Assembly (NCBI RefSeq): GCF_036492425.1
Contig: NZ_AP025293.1
Location: 124,001 to 188,000 of the forward strand
Reading direction: 5' to 3'
DNA: 64,000 nucleotides
Origin: Persicobacter psychrovividus
GTDB taxonomy: Bacteria; Bacteroidota; Bacteroidia; Cytophagales; Cyclobacteriaceae
The notes under the pieces are model-generated. The model saw only the letters and a program-made list of their open reading frames with translations, had not been told where the DNA came from and did no database searches. Below are positions 3,537 through 32,465 of this stretch, one piece after another. How positions within the stretch are numbered: position 1 is the stretch's first letter; the number at the start of each line of letters is the position of its first letter. The translations under genes and the position numbers were made by a program.

Positions 3537-5027
3537 GCCTGTCGAAAATTCACAAAAAAAGCGATTCCAGAAAAAAGGTTAAATTTGAGTGTCCAAACCG
3601 TCATTCAACCTTACCAGAATCGCTTTGAGTTTTAAAAATAACAAACAATCTCTAAAAAAGAAAAAGTCAACAGAAAGAGCTAAACGAAAAAGGCGAAACG
3701 ACAGTATCAAAATTAAAAGGTATAAGGCTCGGGCTTCCTTTTGGGAAAAGAAGTACAAAGAGGAAAAGTCTAAAAACAAGTCGGAGTTTGGGGGGAAAAA
3801 AATCAAGCACCACAGCTACTGTTCGGCCATTATTACTTTGGCTTTAATTTTACATACTGAAACCAGCATGAGCCTTCGTGATAGTGAGACGGTATTGCGT
3901 ATTTTCATTCAACAAATGCACATAGATAGTAAATGCCCTGACCATTCGACGATTGATAATTGGTTAAAAAAAGCAGGAATGCAGGCCATCGAACCATTTT
4001 CACCTGAGCGGCCATGTGTTTTGATTTGTGATGAAAGCATTTCATTCAACGGGAAGAAATTGTTTTTGGTACTTGCCGTTCCTGTGTCGGTTTCTGACCA
4101 GCAGCGTACATTACGTTTTGAGGACTGTCACTTGGTTTATCTTGGTGCGAAAAAAGGTTGGTCGGCAGATGTAATTTATAAGGAACTTCAACCACTCGTT
4201 CAGAAGCTGAAAATTCAATATGTCCTAAGCGATAAAGGTTCTAATTTACTTAAGGCTACAGCCTTGCTGGGGCTTGATCATGTTTCGGATATCACCCATG
4301 AAGTATCAAGGACACTGAAAAATCTATATAACGATACAGATGATTACAAGAATTTCATCAAATGGGTTGGTGAACTCAGAAAAGATTTAGCGTGTGGGGA
4401 ATATGCACATTTGGCCCCTCCAAAAGTAAGGCATCATTGTAGGTTTCATCAGCTTGGGCAATATGAAAAGTGGTTTAGAAAGGTCGGTCCTGAGCTGAAA
4501 AATGTCGCCGAAGAAAGCAAAGGTGCGGCTTTGAGCCTCCTCCAAATCAGTGATCATACACCTTTCATCAAGGATTTGATATCTTTGACCCCAGTGATCA
4601 AAGAAATATTATCGGTTGGCAGAACGGAAGGGATAAGTCACAAAACTATTTTGAAATTAACTCAAAAAATGGAAGAACTCGAAGGGGATCGGCCAACTAT
4701 ATTCAGAGAAAAAATCACTCATTATTTTCATAAAACCTATAAAACGATTGGTGAAGACATCCCTTTTTGTTGCAGTGCTATCATCGAAAGCGTATTCGGA
4801 AAGTACAAATCAAAAATGAGCAGCCACCCACAGAAAATGTGCACCAACCACTTGCTGACCATTCCCTTATTTTTTGTGAAAGAAAATGAAATTGCCGAAC
4901 TTGTTTCAGGATTTGACACCGTAAAAGTGGCAGAAATCAAAGATAAGGAAGCCGTGGCAAAAGCAATGATGAGCGTTCAAATGGCTGCTTAACTCGTGTA
5001 CATGTTTTTTGAAAATATTCGACAGGC
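3537..5027 (+). mobile_element. DDE insertion sequence inside the IS630 pair (1491 bp)
   Basis: The ends are inverted repeats, GCCTGTCGAAAATTC on the left and the complement of GAATATTTTC reading GCCTGTCGAATATTT on the right. TA is present at both edges, shared with the abutting IS630 copies. The interior is almost filled by one 467-aa transposase gene. The terminal sequence GCCTGTCGAA recurs in short repeats elsewhere in the window (21946, 41476, 43300s), which look like non-autonomous derivatives. Confidence 0.75.
3589..4992 (+). CDS. DDE transposase, unassigned family, 467 aa
   Basis: A very basic N-terminus (residues 1-65, many Lys/Arg) is followed by a helical region with a likely DNA-binding HTH (CPDHSTIDNWLKKAGM near 117-131) and an RNase H-like core. 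Candidate catalytic residues are Asp148 in VLICDESISF, Asp215 in YVLSDKGSN and Glu400 in CCSAIIESVFGKYK. Translation starts at GTG 3589. The family is not one I can name with confidence; it resembles Bacteroidota transposases of 450-480 aa. It is intact, so it could also move the short repeats that share its terminal sequence. Confidence 0.75.
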   Translation: MSKPSFNLTRIALSFKNNKQSLKKKKSTERAKRKRRNDSIKIKRYKARASFWEKKYKEEKSKNKSEFGGKKIKHHSYCSAIITLALILHTETSMSLRDSETVLRIFIQQMHIDSKCPDHSTIDNWLKKAGMQAIEPFSPERPCVLICDESISFNGKKLFLVLAVPVSVSDQQRTLRFEDCHLVYLGAKKGWSADVIYKELQPLVQKLKIQYVLSDKGSNLLKATALLGLDHVSDITHEVSRTLKNLYNDTDDYKNFIKWVGELRKDLACGEYAHLAPPKVRHHCRFHQLGQYEKWFRKVGPELKNVAEESKGAALSLLQISDHTPFIKDLISLTPVIKEILSVGRTEGISHKTILKLTQKMEELEGDRPTIFREKITHYFHKTYKTIGEDIPFCCSAIIESVFGKYKSKMSSHPQKMCTNHLLTIPLFFVKENEIAELVSGFDTVKVAEIKDKEAVAKAMMSVQMAA

Positions 5028-9530: not shown

Positions 9531-10886
9531 GTGAGACATTATGAATTATGTCTTTACAGCATCACGCTCCCCAACAACCTCCAATTGAAATACAAGACCA
9601 ACCTGCTTTAGCGGGTTTTACTTTGTTAGGCCACTGCTTCAGCTGTGGTAACACAGGATAGGTTGGTCGAGGGCAGGAGCCTACAACCCAACCAATTCAG
9701 ATTGGTTGGATCTATCACGAGAGGGACGCTCCCGATAGCGTTAAGATCAATAAGCCGTGAGTCATCATGAATCACGCCTGTACAGCATCAGGCTCCCCAA
9801 CAACCTCCAATTGAAATAAAAGACCAACCTGCTTTAGCGGGTTTAACTTTGTTAGGCCACTGCTTCAGCTGTGGTAACAAAGGATAGGTTGGTCGAGGAC
9901 AGGAGCCTACAACCAAACCAATTCAGATTGGTTGGATCTATCACGAGAGGGACTCTCGCGATAGCAATAAGATCAATAAAACGTGAGACAGCATGAATTA
10001 TGCCTTTACAGGAGCACGCTAAGCGCCAACCTCCAATTGAAATGCAGAACCAACCTGCTTTAGCGGGTTTCACTTTGGTAGGCCACTGCTTCAGCTGTGG
10101 TTATAAAGAAAAGTTTAATTTTAAATATGCGCCTACAACCCAACCAATTCAGATTGGTTGGATCCATCACGAGAGGGACTCTCGTGATAGCAATAAGATC
10201 AATAAAACGTGAGACAGCATGAATTACGTCTTTACAGCATTAGGCTATCTACCAACATCACATTGAAATGCAGGTTCAACCTGCTTTAGCGGGTTTTACG
10301 TTGTTAGGCCACTGCTTCAGCTGTGGTAACACAGGATAGGTTGGTCGAGGGCAGGAGCCTACAACCCAACCAATTCAGATTGGTTGGATCTATCACGAGA
10401 GGGACGCTCCCGATAGCGTTAAGATCAATAAGCCGTGAGTCATCATGAATCACGCCTGTACAGCATCACGCTCCCCAACAACCTCCAATTGAAATACACG
10501 ACCAACCTGCTTTAGCGGGTTTTACGTTGTTAGGCCACTGCTTCAGCTGTGGTTATAAAGAAAAGTTTAATTTTAAATATGCGCCTACAACCAGACCAAT
10601 TCAGATTGGTTGGATTTATCACAAGAGGGACGCTCCCGATAGCGTTAAGATCAATAAGGCGTGAGACATCATGAATTACGTCTTTACAGCATTAGGCTAT
10701 CTACCAACATCACATTGAAATGCAGGCTCAACCTGCTTTAGCGGGTTTCACTTTGGCAGGCCACTGCTTCAGCTGTGGTTATAAAGAAAAGTTTAATTTT
10801 AAATATGCGCCTACAACCCAACCAATTCAGATTGGTTGGATCTATCACGAGAGGGACGCTCCCGATAGCGTTGAGATCAATAAGCC
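9531..10886. repeat. Tandem array of six 226-bp units
   Basis: Units begin at 9531, 9757, 9983, 10209, 10435 and 10661, each beginning GTGAG. Every unit has three potential hairpins: AACCTGC/GCGGGTT with a TTTA loop, CCAACCAAT/ATTGGTTGG with a CAG-containing loop, and CTATCACGAGAG paired with CTCTCGCGATAG or variants. One 33-base block exists in two unrelated versions of equal length: units 1, 2 and 4 carry TAACACAGGATAGGTTGG..., units 3, 5 and 6 carry TTATAAAGAAAAGTTTAA.... Other sub-blocks also occur in two versions. Because 226 is not a multiple of three, no frame is kept across units, so coding is unlikely. Confidence 0.9.
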
Positions 10887-11047
10887 GTTGAAATGTAAAT
10901 TATTATTCCGTTATTTCTTAGGCCATTGCTTGGTTCCTGCACTTCGATAAACTCAGTCACCAATCCTGTCGGAGGATGAGCGGTGGTTACCAAGAATAGG
11001 CCTTGAACTATTTTCATGCTTGTTCGTTGGGCTTTGGGTTTTTGCCC

Positions 11048-13846
11048 CTAAATACTTTTAATATAATCCTTGAGATTAATTTCTTTGTTGAGCCCAAGCT
11101 TTTTCTTGAGGCGATACCGTCGCAGTTCGACGCTTTTTGGGGTGATGTTAAAGATTGGTGCCAGTTCTTTGGTCGATAGGTTGACTTTCAGATAGGCGCA
11201 TAGTTTGAGGTCTTCGGTGGTGAGTTTTTCATGCTTTTCCTGTAATCTTTTGAAAAAGTCCTGGTGGGTTTGGGAGAAGGCGGACTCAAAAACAAGCCAG
11301 TCTTTCTTTTCGTCAAACTGTTCTTGAATGATGCCATCCAAACGCTCAATGTCCCGAATTCTCAGCGGTTTTTTATGTTCCCGCAGCTGCTGTATCTGTT
11401 GTTGCAGGTTGGCAATAATTTCTTTCTTTTTCCCGTCCTGAATTAACAGCTTTGACAGTTCGCCATTTTTATTGTTAATCTCTTTTTGTAGCTGTTCTTC
11501 TTTGAGCTGCTGCATCTTTTTTTCGTGCAGGCGGCGGGTTTTGTGCATGGTCTGACGTTCACGTCGGAGCATATTTTTGCGTTGCAGGCGCAGGCGTCCA
11601 CGGTGATATTTGTAGCCAAGGAACAGCAGGCCAATCAGCAAGAGCACATACGCCAGGTAAGCTGCGGTGCTCAGATACCAGGGCGACTCAATGGTAAAAT
11701 GGTAGGCAGCGGCCTGTTTTTCTCCCCGAATCCGAACCATCAGGGTGTAATCGCCATGGGGTAGGTTCTGAAATTCAAGGTGGTTGCTCAGTCCATTGGT
11801 CTGCCACTGATTATTGTAGCCTTTCAGCTGGTATTCGTAATCGGTGGCCTCGCCATAGCGGTATGCGGTAAAGGAGAACTCAATGCTGTTGTCCTGGTGT
11901 GCAAGGGTAGGGTGTTGTTGCTTTATGCGCTTGGCGGTTCCTTTTCGGTGGTCGTGCACGGTTACCGATGTAAAACTGATGGGGCGATGAGCGCTGTCCA
12001 TTTGTGGTTTGTTCAGGTTCCAAAACGCCATGCCATGATCTGTCGGCAGTGCAAAAAGGGAATCTGCGAGCGTGCTGACATGGGCAAATTTATAAACCAG
12101 TGGCTGGGCAAGCTGATTATAATGTTGTGGTAAGAGGCGCAACTCCTTTCGGCCCGCATGATAGAGGTAAAGCTGATCTTTAATACTCACCATGCTATAT
12201 TGCTGTACGGGCTGCGAAATGTACTGTAGATCATTAAGGGGTGGAGCGGTGGCAGAAATCTTCCCGTTGGCAAACGTCACGGACTGCTGTTGGCTGGTAA
12301 TGATCGTTTGGCCATTCAGAGCCACTGCACGGACATTCTTTGTTGCCCCAAGCTGATAGGTCGCCTTAAAGTCAATGGCCTTAACGACTTTCTTATAGGT
12401 GTGATCCAGCCACAATTGAACAATGCGGTCGCTGAAGGTGGTCACCAGCAGGCTGCCGTCGGCTTGTTCAACAATGTTTTTCGTCCGCTCTTGCAGTTGT
12501 TCATCAACTGTTGCCCAATATTGCCATTGTCCCGCCATTTTGCGGAAGATCGCTATGCCGTAGTAACTGCTTTCATAAATAATATCGGGCATGATTTGAC
12601 TGCGCTGAAACTCAAAGCCGCCAGCGGTTTTGGCAATTTTTTTCAGTCGTTGGTTTTCGATCACATAGGTGCCATCATTATGCCCACACCACAGCAGGCT
12701 GTCCACCTCACTGATGTTCCACACCAAGCCGTCGGAGCCTTTCAATAGTGTGAATCGGGGGAAATCGTCGGTAAAGATTTTTTGGCCGTGGTAAATCCCC
12801 TGGTTGGTGGCAATATAGTAATCTTGCCCCTGCTGACAGATGTCATTGATGGCCCCAAAATGCTCCATCAGGTCATTGATGAACGTGGAGGGCGACTGTA
12901 AATTGATCAGCGAAATGCCATCATCAAGGCCGAGCCAAAGTTTTCCCTGCTGATATTCAATGCTATGGATTCGGTTGTTCTGAAGCCCCGTTTTGGTGGA
13001 CAGGTGATAGCGGATATTGCCATTCAGTTCTGCGACAATTAAGCCGGCGTTCATGGTCCCGAAGGCGTACAGCTGGTCGTCGATCCGCTTTATTTTATTG
13101 ATGCCCGCCCGTTTCAGTAAACTGTTCAGCCCATTGTTTAGCGGCTTGAGGTTTTCGCCATCATAGATAAACAAGCCTGCCCGCAGGGTGCCGATCAAAA
13201 GGGTGTGGTCTGTCTGTTTAATAATTGATTTTACCCGATAGTGATGCAGGTCGGGAATTTTGATGCGTTGTTTGAGTCCGTTGGTTTTGAGCTCAAAAAG
13301 GTCATTATATACAATCTGATAGTAGATGTCATTGTTAATAGGGTAGGAGAAGGTGATATTCCCAGGCAGACGCTCATAGCCCAATGCTCCTGAATGATTC
13401 AGAAAGTAGAAACGGTTGAAGGCCTGAAAAACCACCTGCTGCCCCGCCTCGAAAATCTTCCAGATGCTTTCCTGTATGGTTCGAATTAAATGAAATCCAT
13501 CCTCAAGGTGGTCGGCCAGAAAGTAGCCCATAAACTGGTTTCCGCCCACATAAATGGTGTCGTTCTGGTAATGGACGGCATGCAACATATTGGGCGTGGG
13601 GTAGGATTGCCAGTTTTCGCCGTCGTAGCGGAGCAAGCCCGCCGAATTGGCAAAATATACGGCACCATTTTCACCAATGCTGATGTCCCAGTTTTTATTG
13701 TCGGCCCCATATTGCGCCTTATTGTAGTTGGTCAGTTGTGGCGTAATGGGAATCGAAAAATGAGCAGGGAATTGCTCATTACCCGCCAACTGATGATAGG
13801 GGTTAGGCATTAATAGGCAAAAAAGGCAATATATATAAGCAATCAT
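11048..13846 (-). CDS. Y_Y_Y-domain sensor with LuxR-type HTH output
   Basis: Predicted one-component membrane regulator of Bacteroidota carbohydrate loci. The frame is open to 13936, but the ATG at 13846 starts a plausible signal peptide (MIAYIYCLFCLLMPNPYH), so it is preferred (932 aa). In order it has a large periplasmic beta-propeller of Reg_prop-like repeats (LWLGLDDGISLINL, DQLYAFGTMNAGLI), a Y_Y_Y domain ending near YTLMVRIRG, one membrane helix (AYLAYVLLLIGLLFLGYKYH), a long coiled coil and a C-terminal HTH (LSTKELAPIFNITPKSVELR). There is no kinase domain, so signal output is direct DNA binding. It is divergent from the SusC/SusD pair at 14486, which it probably controls. Confidence 0.85.
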   Translation of the reverse strand: MIAYIYCLFCLLMPNPYHQLAGNEQFPAHFSIPITPQLTNYNKAQYGADNKNWDISIGENGAVYFANSAGLLRYDGENWQSYPTPNMLHAVHYQNDTIYVGGNQFMGYFLADHLEDGFHLIRTIQESIWKIFEAGQQVVFQAFNRFYFLNHSGALGYERLPGNITFSYPINNDIYYQIVYNDLFELKTNGLKQRIKIPDLHHYRVKSIIKQTDHTLLIGTLRAGLFIYDGENLKPLNNGLNSLLKRAGINKIKRIDDQLYAFGTMNAGLIVAELNGNIRYHLSTKTGLQNNRIHSIEYQQGKLWLGLDDGISLINLQSPSTFINDLMEHFGAINDICQQGQDYYIATNQGIYHGQKIFTDDFPRFTLLKGSDGLVWNISEVDSLLWCGHNDGTYVIENQRLKKIAKTAGGFEFQRSQIMPDIIYESSYYGIAIFRKMAGQWQYWATVDEQLQERTKNIVEQADGSLLVTTFSDRIVQLWLDHTYKKVVKAIDFKATYQLGATKNVRAVALNGQTIITSQQQSVTFANGKISATAPPLNDLQYISQPVQQYSMVSIKDQLYLYHAGRKELRLLPQHYNQLAQPLVYKFAHVSTLADSLFALPTDHGMAFWNLNKPQMDSAHRPISFTSVTVHDHRKGTAKRIKQQHPTLAHQDNSIEFSFTAYRYGEATDYEYQLKGYNNQWQTNGLSNHLEFQNLPHGDYTLMVRIRGEKQAAAYHFTIESPWYLSTAAYLAYVLLLIGLLFLGYKYHRGRLRLQRKNMLRRERQTMHKTRRLHEKKMQQLKEEQLQKEINNKNGELSKLLIQDGKKKEIIANLQQQIQQLREHKKPLRIRDIERLDGIIQEQFDEKKDWLVFESAFSQTHQDFFKRLQEKHEKLTTEDLKLCAYLKVNLSTKELAPIFNITPKSVELRRYRLKKKLGLNKEINLKDYIKSI

Positions 13847-26802: not shown

Positions 26803-27489
26803 TTAGTCTAATTCTTCATAGGTAAACACCGTGGTACCTTTAATATCGGTCCCTTTCTCTCCATAAAAGGAAGTAAAAGCGAGTTTATAGAATTTCCCTT
26901 GTTCAGTTTTTATCACATAGTAAGTGTCTGCTACCATGGTGTACAATCCCGTATCAGTATTGACTGATTTCCAGTCGTAACCAATGGCATCCACATTTTC
27001 CTGAAGCGATAAAGCTTCTGCTTGCTCCAGGGTCATGTCAGCAAAAGGAACGAAATCCTCCTGAGCATCTTCCTTCGTTATTTTTACTGCTTTGGTCATC
27101 GAAGTGGTATTGATCAAGGCACCAGTGGCATTGACCACATAAATACTCCCTGGCCCCATTTCAACATCCTGAACATGATAGTTCGTCAGCACGATGTCCC
27201 ATCCGGGCATGGCATCAGAAACGGTAACGTCTTTTTCTATACTGAAATGGACATAATTATCATCTGCAACCTGATTCAATTTGGTCGGGTCAACGGCAGG
27301 CTGATCGAGATCAAAATACAATTGGTTCTCGTAACTCACCTCCCCATCGTCTCCGCTGGTTACCCCAATATCTGCTACACGAACGGTGGTCGGAATTCTC
27401 GGATCAAACTCCGCCTCTGTATTGCATGAACATAAAACAAAGGCAAATTGAATGGCCAATAGGCTGAAAAGGTTAAATTTAGTTGTCAT
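26803..27489 (-). CDS. HmuY-family heme-binding lipoprotein, 228 aa
   Basis: Surface lipoprotein of the HmuY family, which captures heme and passes it to a TonB-dependent receptor. Lipobox Cys21 lies in FVLCSCNTEAEF. The family pattern of paired beta-strands is seen (YFDLDQ, DNYVHFSIEK, GWDIVLTNY, and near the end YYVIKTEQGKFYKLAFTSFY). Length is typical. It is the last gene of a minus-strand operon; its start overlaps the end of the receptor fusion by 11 bp, so the two are tightly coupled. The heme axial ligands cannot be assigned from sequence alone. Confidence 0.85.
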   Translation of the reverse strand: MTTKFNLFSLLAIQFAFVLCSCNTEAEFDPRIPTTVRVADIGVTSGDDGEVSYENQLYFDLDQPAVDPTKLNQVADDNYVHFSIEKDVTVSDAMPGWDIVLTNYHVQDVEMGPGSIYVVNATGALINTTSMTKAVKITKEDAQEDFVPFADMTLEQAEALSLQENVDAIGYDWKSVNTDTGLYTMVADTYYVIKTEQGKFYKLAFTSFYGEKGTDIKGTTVFTYEELD

Positions 27490-30400
27490 TTTTATTTGAT
27501 TTAAAGGTATAACTTATGCTTATAAAGTAACTTCGTCCCCAGGCAACAGGCATTGTTGGACCTGAACTGTGCGCCCCACTGTTGCCCGAAGTATTGATCT
27601 GATTAACATTGAAAATATTCTTCACACCACCACTCAGATTCATGGCATTATTCCATAGGGGTTTTGAGAACGTCAGGTTCATGATTTTATAAGGATCCCT
27701 TACAGATTGCGTGTAACTATCCTCCTCCTCTGTGGCGGGAATCAGTTGTACAAACTGCCCATAATATCTAAAATCAAGTCGGGTATTTATGCCCGTCTTT
27801 TCCCAGAGGTATTCCGTGCTCAGGGTAAAATTATAATTGGGACTGAATTCCATTTTCGCCGTAGCAGGCATGTAATATCCAATATTGGCCACCTGCGCCT
27901 CGGCACTTAACTGCCATTGACCCTGCCAGTTGACTTTGGTGCTGAAATGCCCGCCATAGGTCTTTTTTTCCTGAACATTTCCATAGACATAATCCGCCTG
28001 TCCCTGTTGGTCATCGTTAGGAATCACCATCAATTCTATACCGTTCTTCAGGTGATTATAGTAGGAATTCATTTCAAGTCGAAATTGTAAATCACCAGCG
28101 ATGACTTGCTTCGAAAGGCCTGCGGAAACATTGAAGCCTTCTTCTGCCAACAAATTTTCATTGCCATAAATCTGATGATTGCTATCTACAAAGGTCATAT
28201 AGAGCTCTTTTAGAGAAGGCGATCTGAAGGCGGTGGCCATCGAAAGCCGACCACTCCAGTGTTGAGCGCCCTGCCATCTGTAATGAAGGTTATAAATCAC
28301 GGGGGCATCAAATTTTGAATTATGCATATATCGCAAACCTGGCTGAAGCGTATGCTGATCGGTCAGCTTTATTTCTGCGGAAGAGAAGAGCGCCACTTCA
28401 GTAAGGCCGTCATTTTCTGGCACTTTATCCCCTGAGCCTTCATCCTGTTTGTATTCGCCACCAATTTGTAGCTGAATCCTATCCCAGTTTTGTACAAAAA
28501 TCCAACGACTCAACAAAGTATTAAAATGGTCAGAAGTTTCACCCGTAACGACCTCATCATTATTGATCAGGTCCTTGGTGAGGTGTTGTGTATTTCGGTC
28601 AAAAATCTGATAAGAGGTCAGTCCAGTAAGGGAGGCCTTTTCACCGATGTTCAGCTTCAGTTTCTGATATAAATTATACCTTTTTGTCAGAAACTGAATA
28701 TCGTAAACGGTACTTCCAAATGCTGGGAAATCACCCAAAGCAGAAATGGTTTCATCAAAATTTCTTAGCCCAATTTTAAAATCTATTTTATGATTTTTAA
28801 ATTGATAATAGGGGGAATACTGAAACTGTGTCTTTGGCCGCCAGTCATGGCTCCGGCGCTGACCTTCAGAAGTCGAATTGTAACCATTGAAATAATTGTA
28901 GCTCGTCGCGATGCCCATCAGGTGATTCCCCGATTTATAATTCAGGTCAAGGGAATTCTGAAATTGTCCGACAGATTCCGCATAAGACCGGACCCCAATG
29001 TCAAGCTTGTTCCGTTCATGTTTTTTACTGATAATATTGATCGTGCCCGCCAGAGCATTGGAACCATATATCACCGACATCGGCCCCTCGATAATCTCAA
29101 TTTGTTCAATTTCTGATAGATTGATTTGCGATAAATCGATGTTCCCATCCTGTCGGCCAATCAGCGGTATGCCGTCAATCATTACATTGACGTGCTCTCC
29201 ACCAAGCCCCTGCATCATGATTTTGGTGCCCAGCATGGGGTCCTCAGAAAGATTAATGCCGGACTGAAAGTGAAGAAGATCGGGCAGTTGTGCAGCACCC
29301 ATTTTTGTAATTTCAGGAGAAGCAATAAGCTTGACTTTGTAAACCGATTGATCCACAGGTTTGGGGGTGCCTTGTGCGGTAACCACCACCTGCTGCAACG
29401 ACCTGACATCAGGAGCAAGCTGACAGCGGAGGTTGGCCTTTTTTAGCTTCACCTGCTGATCAATATAGCAAAGATGGTGAACCGTGGCCGTCAGCCCTTC
29501 CTGATAATTAAACCTTGCTTCGCCATTTCTATTGGTGGTCAGGAGTTGTTGCTGTCCGCTTTCCGTATTTTTTATCAGAATGCTTGCACCAGCAATAGGG
29601 GTGGCGTTTTCGTTGTCGGCGACCGATATTTTAAAAACTTGGGCATCAACCGCCAAATGACTGAAAAGCAAAACGCCGATGGCCATGGCTTTTTTGAATG
29701 CCGGCTGTTGTACAAGTGTCCTTTTGGGTAGTTTTCCGCGGCTACTTTTCTTCGCCCATTTGCGCTCCGATAAGTCACTGACGGTATCAAGAATACAGCC
29801 CGTAGGGCAGGTCATTCTACACCAGATCATGGGGTAACGCATGGAAATTGCAATCACCAGGGCTGCAACAAAAAACCAGTAATTTTGCAGCTGATATCCG
29901 AACAGATCTGGGAAAAGTTCAAAATTGGACCAACCACGGAAACCGTAAATTATTCCCGTTAAAATGGCGAGTGTCAGTGCGTAACGAATGGCTGCGAGCT
30001 GTCGGTTGCTGATCATGATTTTCTTGGATTTAAAAGGGGAAAACCGCAAGGCAATCATTTGTGCGGCACCAAAAGGGCAAACATATTTACAATAGGTATT
30101 CTTTCCCCAAATGGCACTCAGCACCACCATAGAGGTATAAATGACCATAAACATGGACAGCTTCGTTCCGATAAAGGGCTGTAATATACTGATATAGGTA
30201 AACGACTGGTTATTGATAAAACCAAGAAAGAGCAGTGTGATACAGCCATATATCAAACGGCCTTTTTTTGTGAATTTGTACCACTTTTGAAAATGGATCA
30301 TGAACAGCAGGCCAATCAATACGGCCTGGAAAATCCACCGATAACCCAATAGGGCTTTAATATTAAAATCACTCGTCGATTCACTTAAATACGCACGCCA

Positions 30401-31150
30401 CATAGGCGCCGCCTGATGCAGCAAAGCGGTGGTCGCATCGGCCATGGCCTTGGTGGTAATAGTTGCCCCGGATACGGCATCAATTTCATGCGCATCGCCA
30501 TAGGATAAATCCTGATATTGCTCGAGATATGAGGTCTGGAAAATTTTCCGCAAATAACTTTCCGTTTCAATGGATTCAATATAGTCTATGCCCTGAATTT
30601 CGCCTCCTGGCGCAATATACATGCCCAGAAAGATTGGCCCCGCATAGCCTTGCACATTATTATGCAGCATATTTTCTGTATAGAGTGCTTCGAGGTGTTG
30701 CCCTTTATAAAGTTCAGCATAGCAGAAATCTTCATGCAGCTTGATGGTCACCTGACGATCCTGCCCCCATTTTTTTTCCAGCCGCTCCCGCATTTGTGCG
30801 GCCCATTCATGGTTATTCAATAAGTTGGTATCTGCCTCTTTTTGAGCGATCAACCCATGAGAGGAAGCTTCTTTTTGCCTGCTGCTGACTATTCCGTAAG
30901 CAAAACGGACTTTGCTTTCCTGCTGAGAAATCAACCCGAATTTTGCAGCCTCCCGTTGTTGGCCCACAAATTTAGGGTTGAAAAATGTTGTCGTCGCAGC
31001 GGTATTGTTCAATACGACCGGGGTAGGGTTGAGCGGTGCATTCAGGCTGAAATAGATTCCCCAGGTCAGCACAACGAAGGTTAATGCTGCCTTGAGGTAA
31101 TCAATTTTCAAGCCTTTTTTAAGCGGAAATAGTCTTAACCAAGCCGACAT
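27479..31150 (-). CDS. FMN/polyferredoxin membrane module fused to a TonB-dependent receptor, 1223 aa
   Basis: The first ~475 residues form an inner-membrane electron-transfer module like NosR: a membrane helix (20-38), an FMN-binding domain with the flavinylation motif DAVSGATIT (224-232), several membrane helices, and two ferredoxin-type cysteine motifs (CKYVCPFG near 354, CRMTCPTGC near 444). A basic stretch and a typical signal peptide (KKAMAIGVLLFSHLAVDAQ, ending at 504) follow. The rest is an outer-membrane receptor: carboxypeptidase-like domain, plug (VNVMIDGIPLIGRQDG, SVIYGSNALAGTINIIS) and barrel. One continuous frame covers both, though the parts belong in different membranes. Internal cleavage at DAQ|V or an internal start at Met489 could separate them. 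The context is heme uptake. Confidence 0.9.
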   Translation of the reverse strand: MSAWLRLFPLKKGLKIDYLKAALTFVVLTWGIYFSLNAPLNPTPVVLNNTAATTTFFNPKFVGQQREAAKFGLISQQESKVRFAYGIVSSRQKEASSHGLIAQKEADTNLLNNHEWAAQMRERLEKKWGQDRQVTIKLHEDFCYAELYKGQHLEALYTENMLHNNVQGYAGPIFLGMYIAPGGEIQGIDYIESIETESYLRKIFQTSYLEQYQDLSYGDAHEIDAVSGATITTKAMADATTALLHQAAPMWRAYLSESTSDFNIKALLGYRWIFQAVLIGLLFMIHFQKWYKFTKKGRLIYGCITLLFLGFINNQSFTYISILQPFIGTKLSMFMVIYTSMVVLSAIWGKNTYCKYVCPFGAAQMIALRFSPFKSKKIMISNRQLAAIRYALTLAILTGIIYGFRGWSNFELFPDLFGYQLQNYWFFVAALVIAISMRYPMIWCRMTCPTGCILDTVSDLSERKWAKKSSRGKLPKRTLVQQPAFKKAMAIGVLLFSHLAVDAQVFKISVADNENATPIAGASILIKNTESGQQQLLTTNRNGEARFNYQEGLTATVHHLCYIDQQVKLKKANLRCQLAPDVRSLQQVVVTAQGTPKPVDQSVYKVKLIASPEITKMGAAQLPDLLHFQSGINLSEDPMLGTKIMMQGLGGEHVNVMIDGIPLIGRQDGNIDLSQINLSEIEQIEIIEGPMSVIYGSNALAGTINIISKKHERNKLDIGVRSYAESVGQFQNSLDLNYKSGNHLMGIATSYNYFNGYNSTSEGQRRSHDWRPKTQFQYSPYYQFKNHKIDFKIGLRNFDETISALGDFPAFGSTVYDIQFLTKRYNLYQKLKLNIGEKASLTGLTSYQIFDRNTQHLTKDLINNDEVVTGETSDHFNTLLSRWIFVQNWDRIQLQIGGEYKQDEGSGDKVPENDGLTEVALFSSAEIKLTDQHTLQPGLRYMHNSKFDAPVIYNLHYRWQGAQHWSGRLSMATAFRSPSLKELYMTFVDSNHQIYGNENLLAEEGFNVSAGLSKQVIAGDLQFRLEMNSYYNHLKNGIELMVIPNDDQQGQADYVYGNVQEKKTYGGHFSTKVNWQGQWQLSAEAQVANIGYYMPATAKMEFSPNYNFTLSTEYLWEKTGINTRLDFRYYGQFVQLIPATEEEDSYTQSVRDPYKIMNLTFSKPLWNNAMNLSGGVKNIFNVNQINTSGNSGAHSSGPTMPVAWGRSYFISISYTFKSNKNDN

Positions 31151-31175: not shown

Positions 31176-32096
31176 TTAAATTGCTGGACTGATTTTATCG
31201 ACCATCTCTTTGGTAATGTTCACTACCCATTTGTTGATGTTGGCATCAGGAAGAATAGCATCCTGCTTATAGGCTACCCGGTCTTCGTGCTGTTCGATGG
31301 CATTGACGCCATTTTGGATAATTTCTCCCTGAAAATATTCATCATTTGCCACCAACACGGGAATGACAATCGCCTTTTCTTCCAGTTCAAGCACTTTCTC
31401 AATCGCCTTTTTTGTTGGTTCAGAGGAGTAACGTACCAAATGCCCACACCAACCGTAACTGATAGAACCGATGCCGGTTTGAACTTTCAAATATTTCCCA
31501 ATATCCTCTACAAGTTCCTCCCACTGTTGATTAAAACTGGCATCACCATAGGCAATCAATGCAACACCTTCATCGCCTGACTGATCCGAAAGGGCAGCCA
31601 CCCGGCGAGCAATATTTTTCTTTAATACAGAAGGGTAATCAAGCAAAGGCGCCACCGTAACTTTGGCCTTGGCACGGTAAACCTCAATTTTTTCCGCCGC
31701 CAATTCCTTCTGAACATCCGGATTGTTGGCCAGGCCACAAATATTCGGGATATCGGAATTGGTATGTGAGCTGATGGTCAGGAAGATAGGGACGATCACG
31801 ACTTCATCGTATCCCTCTGCATCAAACGCTTTCAGCTGCGTAGCGATCGAAGGTTCGGTATATTCCATAAATGCCGTCCGGACATCGGAAACTCTGCCAT
31901 CAGTTTTAATATCAGCAGTAACACTTTTTTCCACATCAAGCAGCATTGAGCGCCAATTTTTGGATACGGAACCATGATTAACCAGCAGTACACCGATTTT
32001 TGAGGAGGATACCGATGCTTCAACAGTAGATTTCTTGGGGTTCGTCTGGCAAGACCATAGCATGAGCATGGTCAGTGCGAAATAGATTGATTTCAT
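31176..32096 (-). CDS. CbiK/CbiX-like chelatase lipoprotein, 306 aa
   Basis: Class II chelatase-fold protein (sirohydrochlorin cobaltochelatase family) with a lipoprotein signal (MLMLWSCQTN, Cys16), so it acts in the periplasm or at a membrane surface, not in cytoplasmic cobalamin synthesis. Family features are IGVLLVNHGS (His41, expected metal-site His), IVPIFLTISSH with His111, and the repeated half near YGWCGHLVRYS. Between the heme receptor fusion (25 bp downstream) and the small Cys protein, it is more likely to bind or demetallate imported heme or another tetrapyrrole than to insert cobalt; this is inference. Confidence 0.8.
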   Translation of the reverse strand: MKSIYFALTMLMLWSCQTNPKKSTVEASVSSSKIGVLLVNHGSVSKNWRSMLLDVEKSVTADIKTDGRVSDVRTAFMEYTEPSIATQLKAFDAEGYDEVVIVPIFLTISSHTNSDIPNICGLANNPDVQKELAAEKIEVYRAKAKVTVAPLLDYPSVLKKNIARRVAALSDQSGDEGVALIAYGDASFNQQWEELVEDIGKYLKVQTGIGSISYGWCGHLVRYSSEPTKKAIEKVLELEEKAIVIPVLVANDEYFQGEIIQNGVNAIEQHEDRVAYKQDAILPDANINKWVVNITKEMVDKISPAI

Positions 32097-32141: not shown

Positions 32142-32465
32142 TTAAGCAGAAGCGATAAGAGTCTGTGCCTCCACTAACAGTTTGGCTTGCTGACAAGCCT
32201 GCTGAAGATCGTGAAGCTCCGTTTCAGTCAAATGATAGGAGAAATTTTGATCCGCAGTTCGCAACACAATGCGCGCTTGCTGATCCTGCAACCGGTAGGC
32301 ATGATCCTTAAAATTCAGGGCAGATAATTCCTCCGTAAATTGGAAATAAGCCGATTTGCTGAAGTTAAACATCAGATTGAGATATTGAATGCTGATCTTA
32401 TTGCACTGGCGACACTGACCAATGTGTAGACCGTCGCTTTTATAGAGGGATCGATGTTGGCACAT
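32142..32465 (-). CDS. Small Cys-containing Bacteroidota protein, 107 aa
   Basis: It starts MCQHRSLYKSDGLHIGQCRQC, a Cys/His cluster that could bind metal, followed by a beta-strand-rich part typical of a small uncharacterised Bacteroidota family (possibly DUF6686). No signal peptide, so it is cytoplasmic. It is the first gene of the heme operon, 45 bp ahead of the chelatase gene. It may sense or handle metal, but the sequence does not prove this. Confidence 0.6.
   Translation of the reverse strand: MCQHRSLYKSDGLHIGQCRQCNKISIQYLNLMFNFSKSAYFQFTEELSALNFKDHAYRLQDQQARIVLRTADQNFSYHLTETELHDLQQACQQAKLLVEAQTLIASA

Follow-up and report, generated by a model that had tools for sequence, protein, structure and literature searches.

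The window, a stretch of 64,000 nucleotides from Persicobacter psychrovividus, carries on its reverse strand a gene (27479-31150) that ORF analysis shows to be a single uninterrupted open frame of 1223 codons, encoding a predicted inner-membrane FMN/Fe-S module followed by a TonB-dependent heme-type receptor. This fused gene sits between the gene of a CbiX/SirB-like chelatase lipoprotein in front (31176-32096, reverse strand) and the gene of a HmuY-family lipoprotein behind (26803-27489, reverse strand), the first 11 bp of which are shared with the end of the fused gene. Directly upstream of the chelatase gene stands a DUF6686 gene (32142-32465, reverse strand), which we discarded as a fifth member of the set, none being among the matches listed in the 16 loci compared below. 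The ORF list also holds a transposase-like frame with a GTG start at 3589-4992 of the forward strand.

By combining Pfam searches, motifs and alignments, we could divide the fused gene into three parts, all on the reverse strand. First, residues 1-455 (29786-31150), hereafter the N-module, form a multi-helix membrane module with an FMN_bind domain at residues 168-244 (45.8 bits, cut-off 22), the SGAT motif of which occupies residues 227-230, and with Fer4_5 in two stretches (47.5 bits, cut-off 22) and two CxxxCP motifs that begin at C354 and C444. The two CxxxCP(F/T)G cores and SGAT were invariant at 9/9 residues in a 14-row alignment. Second, residues 456-503 (29642-29785) comprise a basic linker and an internal signal-peptide-like segment, as judged from hydropathy and from alignment with the start regions of split receptors. 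Third, residues 504-1223 (27482-29641) constitute the predicted mature receptor, in which Plug (604-703) and TonB_dep_Rec_b-barrel (774-1179) were found above their Pfam cut-offs and a CarboxypepD_reg-like region (510-590) below its cut-off. The content of the frame is thus as the preliminary description had it: an FMN_bind domain with SGAT, helices, two Cys motifs, a signal-like segment and a complete receptor. The label “NosR-like” given there suits the architecture and not the membership. NosR / NapH / RnfG-type FMN and Fe-S membrane proteins share FMN_bind and the Fer4_5 CxxxCP motifs with the N-module, but all curated models scored far below cut-off, including the NosR model NF046105 (26.7 bits, cut-off 1000), which rules out NosR itself, and the partner genes here point to heme uptake.

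The lipoprotein encoded in front of the fused gene was assigned from its Pfam CbiX match (59.2 bits, cut-off 22), from invariant columns and from a structure model (pLDDT 81) compared by Foldseek. Its lipobox Cys16, His41 and His111 were invariant in 16/16 rows, and the two His residues align with His positions of CfbA, which we take to be the catalytic His of chelatases. The top Foldseek match was SirB (E 7.9e-8), ferrochelatases and CbiK being found too, and Porphyromonas gingivalis FetB appeared at rank 45 (E 7.6e-4). Since the rmsd of the chelatase matches was high (5.4-9.5 Å) and periplasmic binding proteins were listed from rank 25, similarity to the chelatase fold is moderate; with this fold, the profile and the His positions, the lipoprotein belongs to the CbiX/SirB/HemH superfamily. 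FetB, presumably identical to IhtB, is likewise a chelatase-type protein, although PDB searches returned no sequence match between it and the lipoprotein, and we know of no flavin/Fe-S partner for it in P. gingivalis. One paper calls FetB a putative ferrochelatase/reverse ferrochelatase (PMC13227078).

Then, we looked at what ties the receptor to heme. The HmuY gene, which adjoins the receptor end of the fused gene, scored 39 bits against a Pfam cut-off of 27, and the fused protein contains FRSP...H...NENL at residues 975-1000 (FRSPSLKELYMTFVDSNHQIYGNENL), an arrangement that follows the FRAP/NxxL receptor motif as described in PMC9331221. Persicobacter sp. JZB09, the second species discussed below, has the FRAP form, and the FRxP/H/NxxL heme-receptor motif occurred in 8/8 receptors examined (that of the window and seven others). 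Heme would accordingly be read as the substrate from these sequence features. Another tetrapyrrole role for a cut chain, such as metal insertion or exchange by the chelatase or transport of another metallo-tetrapyrrole, for example a corrinoid, by the receptor, appears fairly unlikely to us, given that the HmuY partner and the FRxP/H/NxxL motif indicate heme and that metal insertion alone would not seem to call for an electron carrier. On its side, the vitamin B12 receptor model TIGR01779 (120.1 bits) and the heme receptor model (120.6 bits) match the receptor about equally, both far below cut-off, and the curated models closest to the lipoprotein are nickelo- and cobaltochelatases, also below cut-off. 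CbiX-type enzymes usually insert metal, and FetB, the Foldseek match named above, is described in PMC13402209 as putting manganese into protoporphyrin.

The system resembles Bacteroidota Hmu uptake (HmuY, HmuR, HmuS), where HmuY likewise accompanies an FRxP/H/NxxL receptor and a chelatase belongs to the operon, but it differs in having a CbiX/SirB-like instead of a CobN-like chelatase and an additional flavin/Fe-S membrane protein, which in Persicobacter forms one chain with the receptor. The HmuY neighbour, the FRAP/NxxL motif and the loop His are thus present and a CobN-like HmuS is absent: CobN (PF02514) had 0 matches in the genome, with a control search matching in 5/14 named genomes. Because no CobN-like HmuS de-chelatase was found in the genome, we did not file the locus as an hmu operon. 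Among 26 further loci fetched by receptor match, 22 contain HmuY (two of these are in the profile used); of the other four, one has no receptor, one is a distant paralogue and two have the receptor where the contig ends. CobN was present in 4 of the 22 HmuY loci, and neither CbiX nor the N-module was found in any of the 26. As 18/22 receptor-HmuY pairs lacked both CobN and CbiX in the stretch examined, such pairs do not require a chelatase as neighbour, and the notion that CbiX stands in for HmuS draws on few cases. On plasmid pAT2 of Aureibacter tunicatorum, of the same NCBI family as Persicobacter, receptor, HmuY and CobN lie in a row (L049, 5986-14227, forward strand) and make up an HmuS-type counterpart of the set.

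We also assessed whether the fusion is genuine and how old it is. Another assembly of the species (G098, locus L056; also found as L037, from an uncultured Persicobacter) has the frame open with 99% identity, and Persicobacter sp. JZB09 carries an uninterrupted frame of 1211 codons with the same four main domains. In a protein search of annotated plasmids, the JZB09 product aligned with that of the window in one piece over residues 14-1216 at 51.9% identity (57% over residues 1-455, 39% at the junction and 50% over the receptor), and synonymous sites are saturated between the two. The JZB09 locus (L048) lies on a 1.58 Mb plasmid, CP012852.1, the record of which is almost unannotated; as it holds only 2 features, the JZB09 fused protein is probably absent from protein databases under that record. 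The fusion is thus genuine and old: the frame recurs in this second assembly and also in JZB09, there at 52% identity and with synonymous change at saturation, which rules out assembly error, recent stop loss and the recent accident considered in the preliminary description. With three assemblies of two species in agreement, the chance of an artefact or of a stop lost in one isolate is negligible.

Both halves are under purifying selection: the fused gene differs between the genome of the window (G000) and G098 in 63 codons, 48 of them synonymous and 15 nonsynonymous (dN/dS 0.087), the junction (residues 456-505) accounting for two synonymous and one nonsynonymous difference. This selection speaks against a precursor that stays uncut, leaving the receptor tied to the inner membrane, or a gene in decay. 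Neither fits with the retention of the FMN, Cys, Plug and barrel features, and no second copy of the receptor, nor of the N-half with an attached receptor, was found by searching the genome, where the other receptor matches share 26-33% identity or less with the fused receptor. What such a reading has in its favour is that cleavage is predicted by a sequence rule only, and we hold it to be very improbable. In the receptor tree the fused receptors form one clade (support 100/99), and the fused N-modules group together (91/94) in a tree with a very long G196 branch.

Only Persicobacter showed the fusion, in 2 species. Within the genus, 2/3 genomes have the fused frame (G000 and G098, both of the same species), and the third, G001 (91% complete), gave no match at E 1e-20. 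N-module searches, run on overlapping genome samples with differing thresholds, matched 7/390 genomes at family level (E 1e-20), 11/390 at order level (E 1e-60), 1/395 at phylum level (the genome of the window; E 1e-50), 10/18 genomes of the family of G092 and 1/8 of the genus of G276. Among all genomes with N-module matches, only G000 and G098 had frames long enough for the fusion. No match was found in the viral contigs searched, and our literature search, with most subscription journals outside its reach, found no paper on such a fusion. The split four-gene set was found in few of these genomes and is a rarer variant of Bacteroidota heme uptake.

To trace the origin of the fusion, we compared JZB09 with 15 unfused loci in which the N-module was matched, scanning these 16 loci for partner genes with phmmer (ORFs of at least 80 aa, E 1e-4). 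N-module and receptor are adjacent genes in 12/15 unfused loci (L050-L052, L059, L061-L068), which indicates that the fusion arose from neighbouring genes. The gap from the N-module stop to the receptor is 5-12 bp in seven of the 12 and 85 bp in one, and in the remaining four more than 100 bp separate it from the first ATG-started receptor frame. CbiX precedes the N-module in 14/15 unfused loci, and wherever the order is kept, N-module and receptor are downstream of CbiX. Relatives outside Persicobacter thus have separate genes, while the fusion is common to two species inside the genus; the preliminary description had proposed such a search, with separate genes in all relatives as the refuting outcome, which is thus only half borne out. 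Three loci depart from the common arrangement: L053 (G059) has the order receptor, HmuY, CbiX, N-module, its N-module frame (10259-11674, forward strand) being broken into two by a TAA; L054 stops at a contig edge; and L046, a distant N-module match (27% identity), has no partner genes within 3.9 kb.

The preliminary description had left three readings of the junction side by side: cleavage by signal peptidase, an internal start at Met489 and the recent accident dismissed above. Behind the N-half, a basic stretch (KWAKKSSRGKLPKR) gives way to a hydrophobic one; in the signal-like segment KKAMAIGVLLFSHLAVDA|Q, the predicted cut is after residue 503 (VDA|Q), the JZB09 counterpart being AWA|Q. 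The preliminary description placed the cut at DAQ|V; the likelier bond lies one residue earlier, at A|Q. Each fused junction combines basic residues with a hydrophobic stretch and A|Q (FKKAMAIGVLLFSHLAVDA|Q in the window and KIKRNVPKVATLLLLFMGLGNAWA|Q in JZB09), and the separate receptor of the split relative G196 starts with MKRALLISGFFFLAGICSA|Q. A simple rule that left Q unscored, and for which other membrane helices did not serve as controls, predicted a signal peptide in 34/37 separate receptor-like frames from the fetched loci, 20/34 with Q at +1; judged by sequence rule, the fused frame contains an internal signal peptide and a cut site. PMC5837995 describes Gln as the residue that most signal peptidase I substrates expose in Bacteroidetes (the Q-rule, with a mean of 71% for Bacteroidetes species), and both fused junctions agree with it.

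Alternatively, ribosomes could also start at Met489, making a separate receptor with MAIGVLLFSHLAVDA as signal peptide and leaving the fused product as a by-product. Met489 is the sole ATG at the signal-like segment of the window and stands behind an A-rich stretch, which favours an internal start. However, this start lacks conservation: in JZB09, residues 446-481, between the last Fe-S motif and the hydrophobic core, contain neither ATG nor GTG nor TTG but only ATT, at 463 and 472 (CTG, TTG and ATG occur inside the core). Moreover, a signal peptide beginning at Met489 would open without basic residues, and the FKK preceding it aligns with the MKR of a split relative. We therefore consider internal initiation improbable, and Met489 falls as a general explanation. 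Because JZB09 lacks a start codon there and both junctions carry A|Q, internal cleavage by signal peptidase is favoured as the best reading, and the fused gene probably encodes a polyprotein conserved in one genus and cut by this enzyme.

Hydropathy of the N-half gave five segments above the 1.4 threshold, the expected sixth (about 297-315) falling below it; modelling of residues 1-620 gave a structure of too low confidence for use (pLDDT 46). Six helices would put both ends of the N-half in the cytoplasm and the FMN domain in the periplasm; with such ends, the basic-then-hydrophobic stretch fits a signal peptide starting from the cytoplasm. In the mechanism that we infer, the first ~455 residues would become an inner-membrane protein that exposes its FMN domain on the outside and its Fe-S motifs on the inside. 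The basic linker and the hydrophobic segment after it would serve as an internal signal peptide, and signal peptidase I would cut behind A503. Once released, the C-terminal part would reach the outer membrane and act there as a heme receptor partnered with HmuY. The flavin/Fe-S half would remain in the inner membrane and supply the periplasm with electrons from the cytoplasm or from quinol; there, the CbiX/SirB-like lipoprotein would remove reduced iron from imported heme. We regard this proposal as a whole, that is a cut polyprotein precursor yielding carrier and heme receptor, with de-chelation by a CbiX-type lipoprotein, as reasonably probable from the sequences. That one translation and one cut supply equal amounts of inner-membrane donor and TonB receptor, as part of a new kind of heme-iron operon whose carrier drives the lipoprotein, is put forward more tentatively, as a little short of an even chance.

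By analogy, the FMN/Fe-S half may power a periplasmic CbiX-type chelatase in the role that CobN-type HmuS plays elsewhere. Together, chelatase, electron carrier, heme-type receptor and HmuY make the set a direct candidate for the electron source of heme iron removal, and the Persicobacter fusion links carrier and receptor genetically. If the cut is real, one precursor serves both membranes of a diderm cell. The Bradyrhizobium cytochrome b/c1 precursor FbcH is a bacterial membrane precursor cut into two, both products staying in the inner membrane; in contrast, one predicted Persicobacter product would go to the outer membrane. One paper presents HmuS as an NADH-dependent de-chelatase with an electron path stated as unknown (PMC12583661), and a 2026 paper leaves its in vivo electron donor open and suggests flavoproteins or quinones (PMC13227078). 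Two further sources offer parallels rather than proof: the hfp heme locus of Flavobacterium psychrophilum is situated in a region that holds iron-responsive genes of putative transmembrane electron transfer (PMC9331221), and PepSY-type proteins are known from flavin clusters that include TonB genes (PMC8238504). The genome of the window has two other FMN_bind sites, in frames of 236 and 246 residues. ApbE, which is needed for FMN attachment, is represented there by 3 match rows at 2 places.
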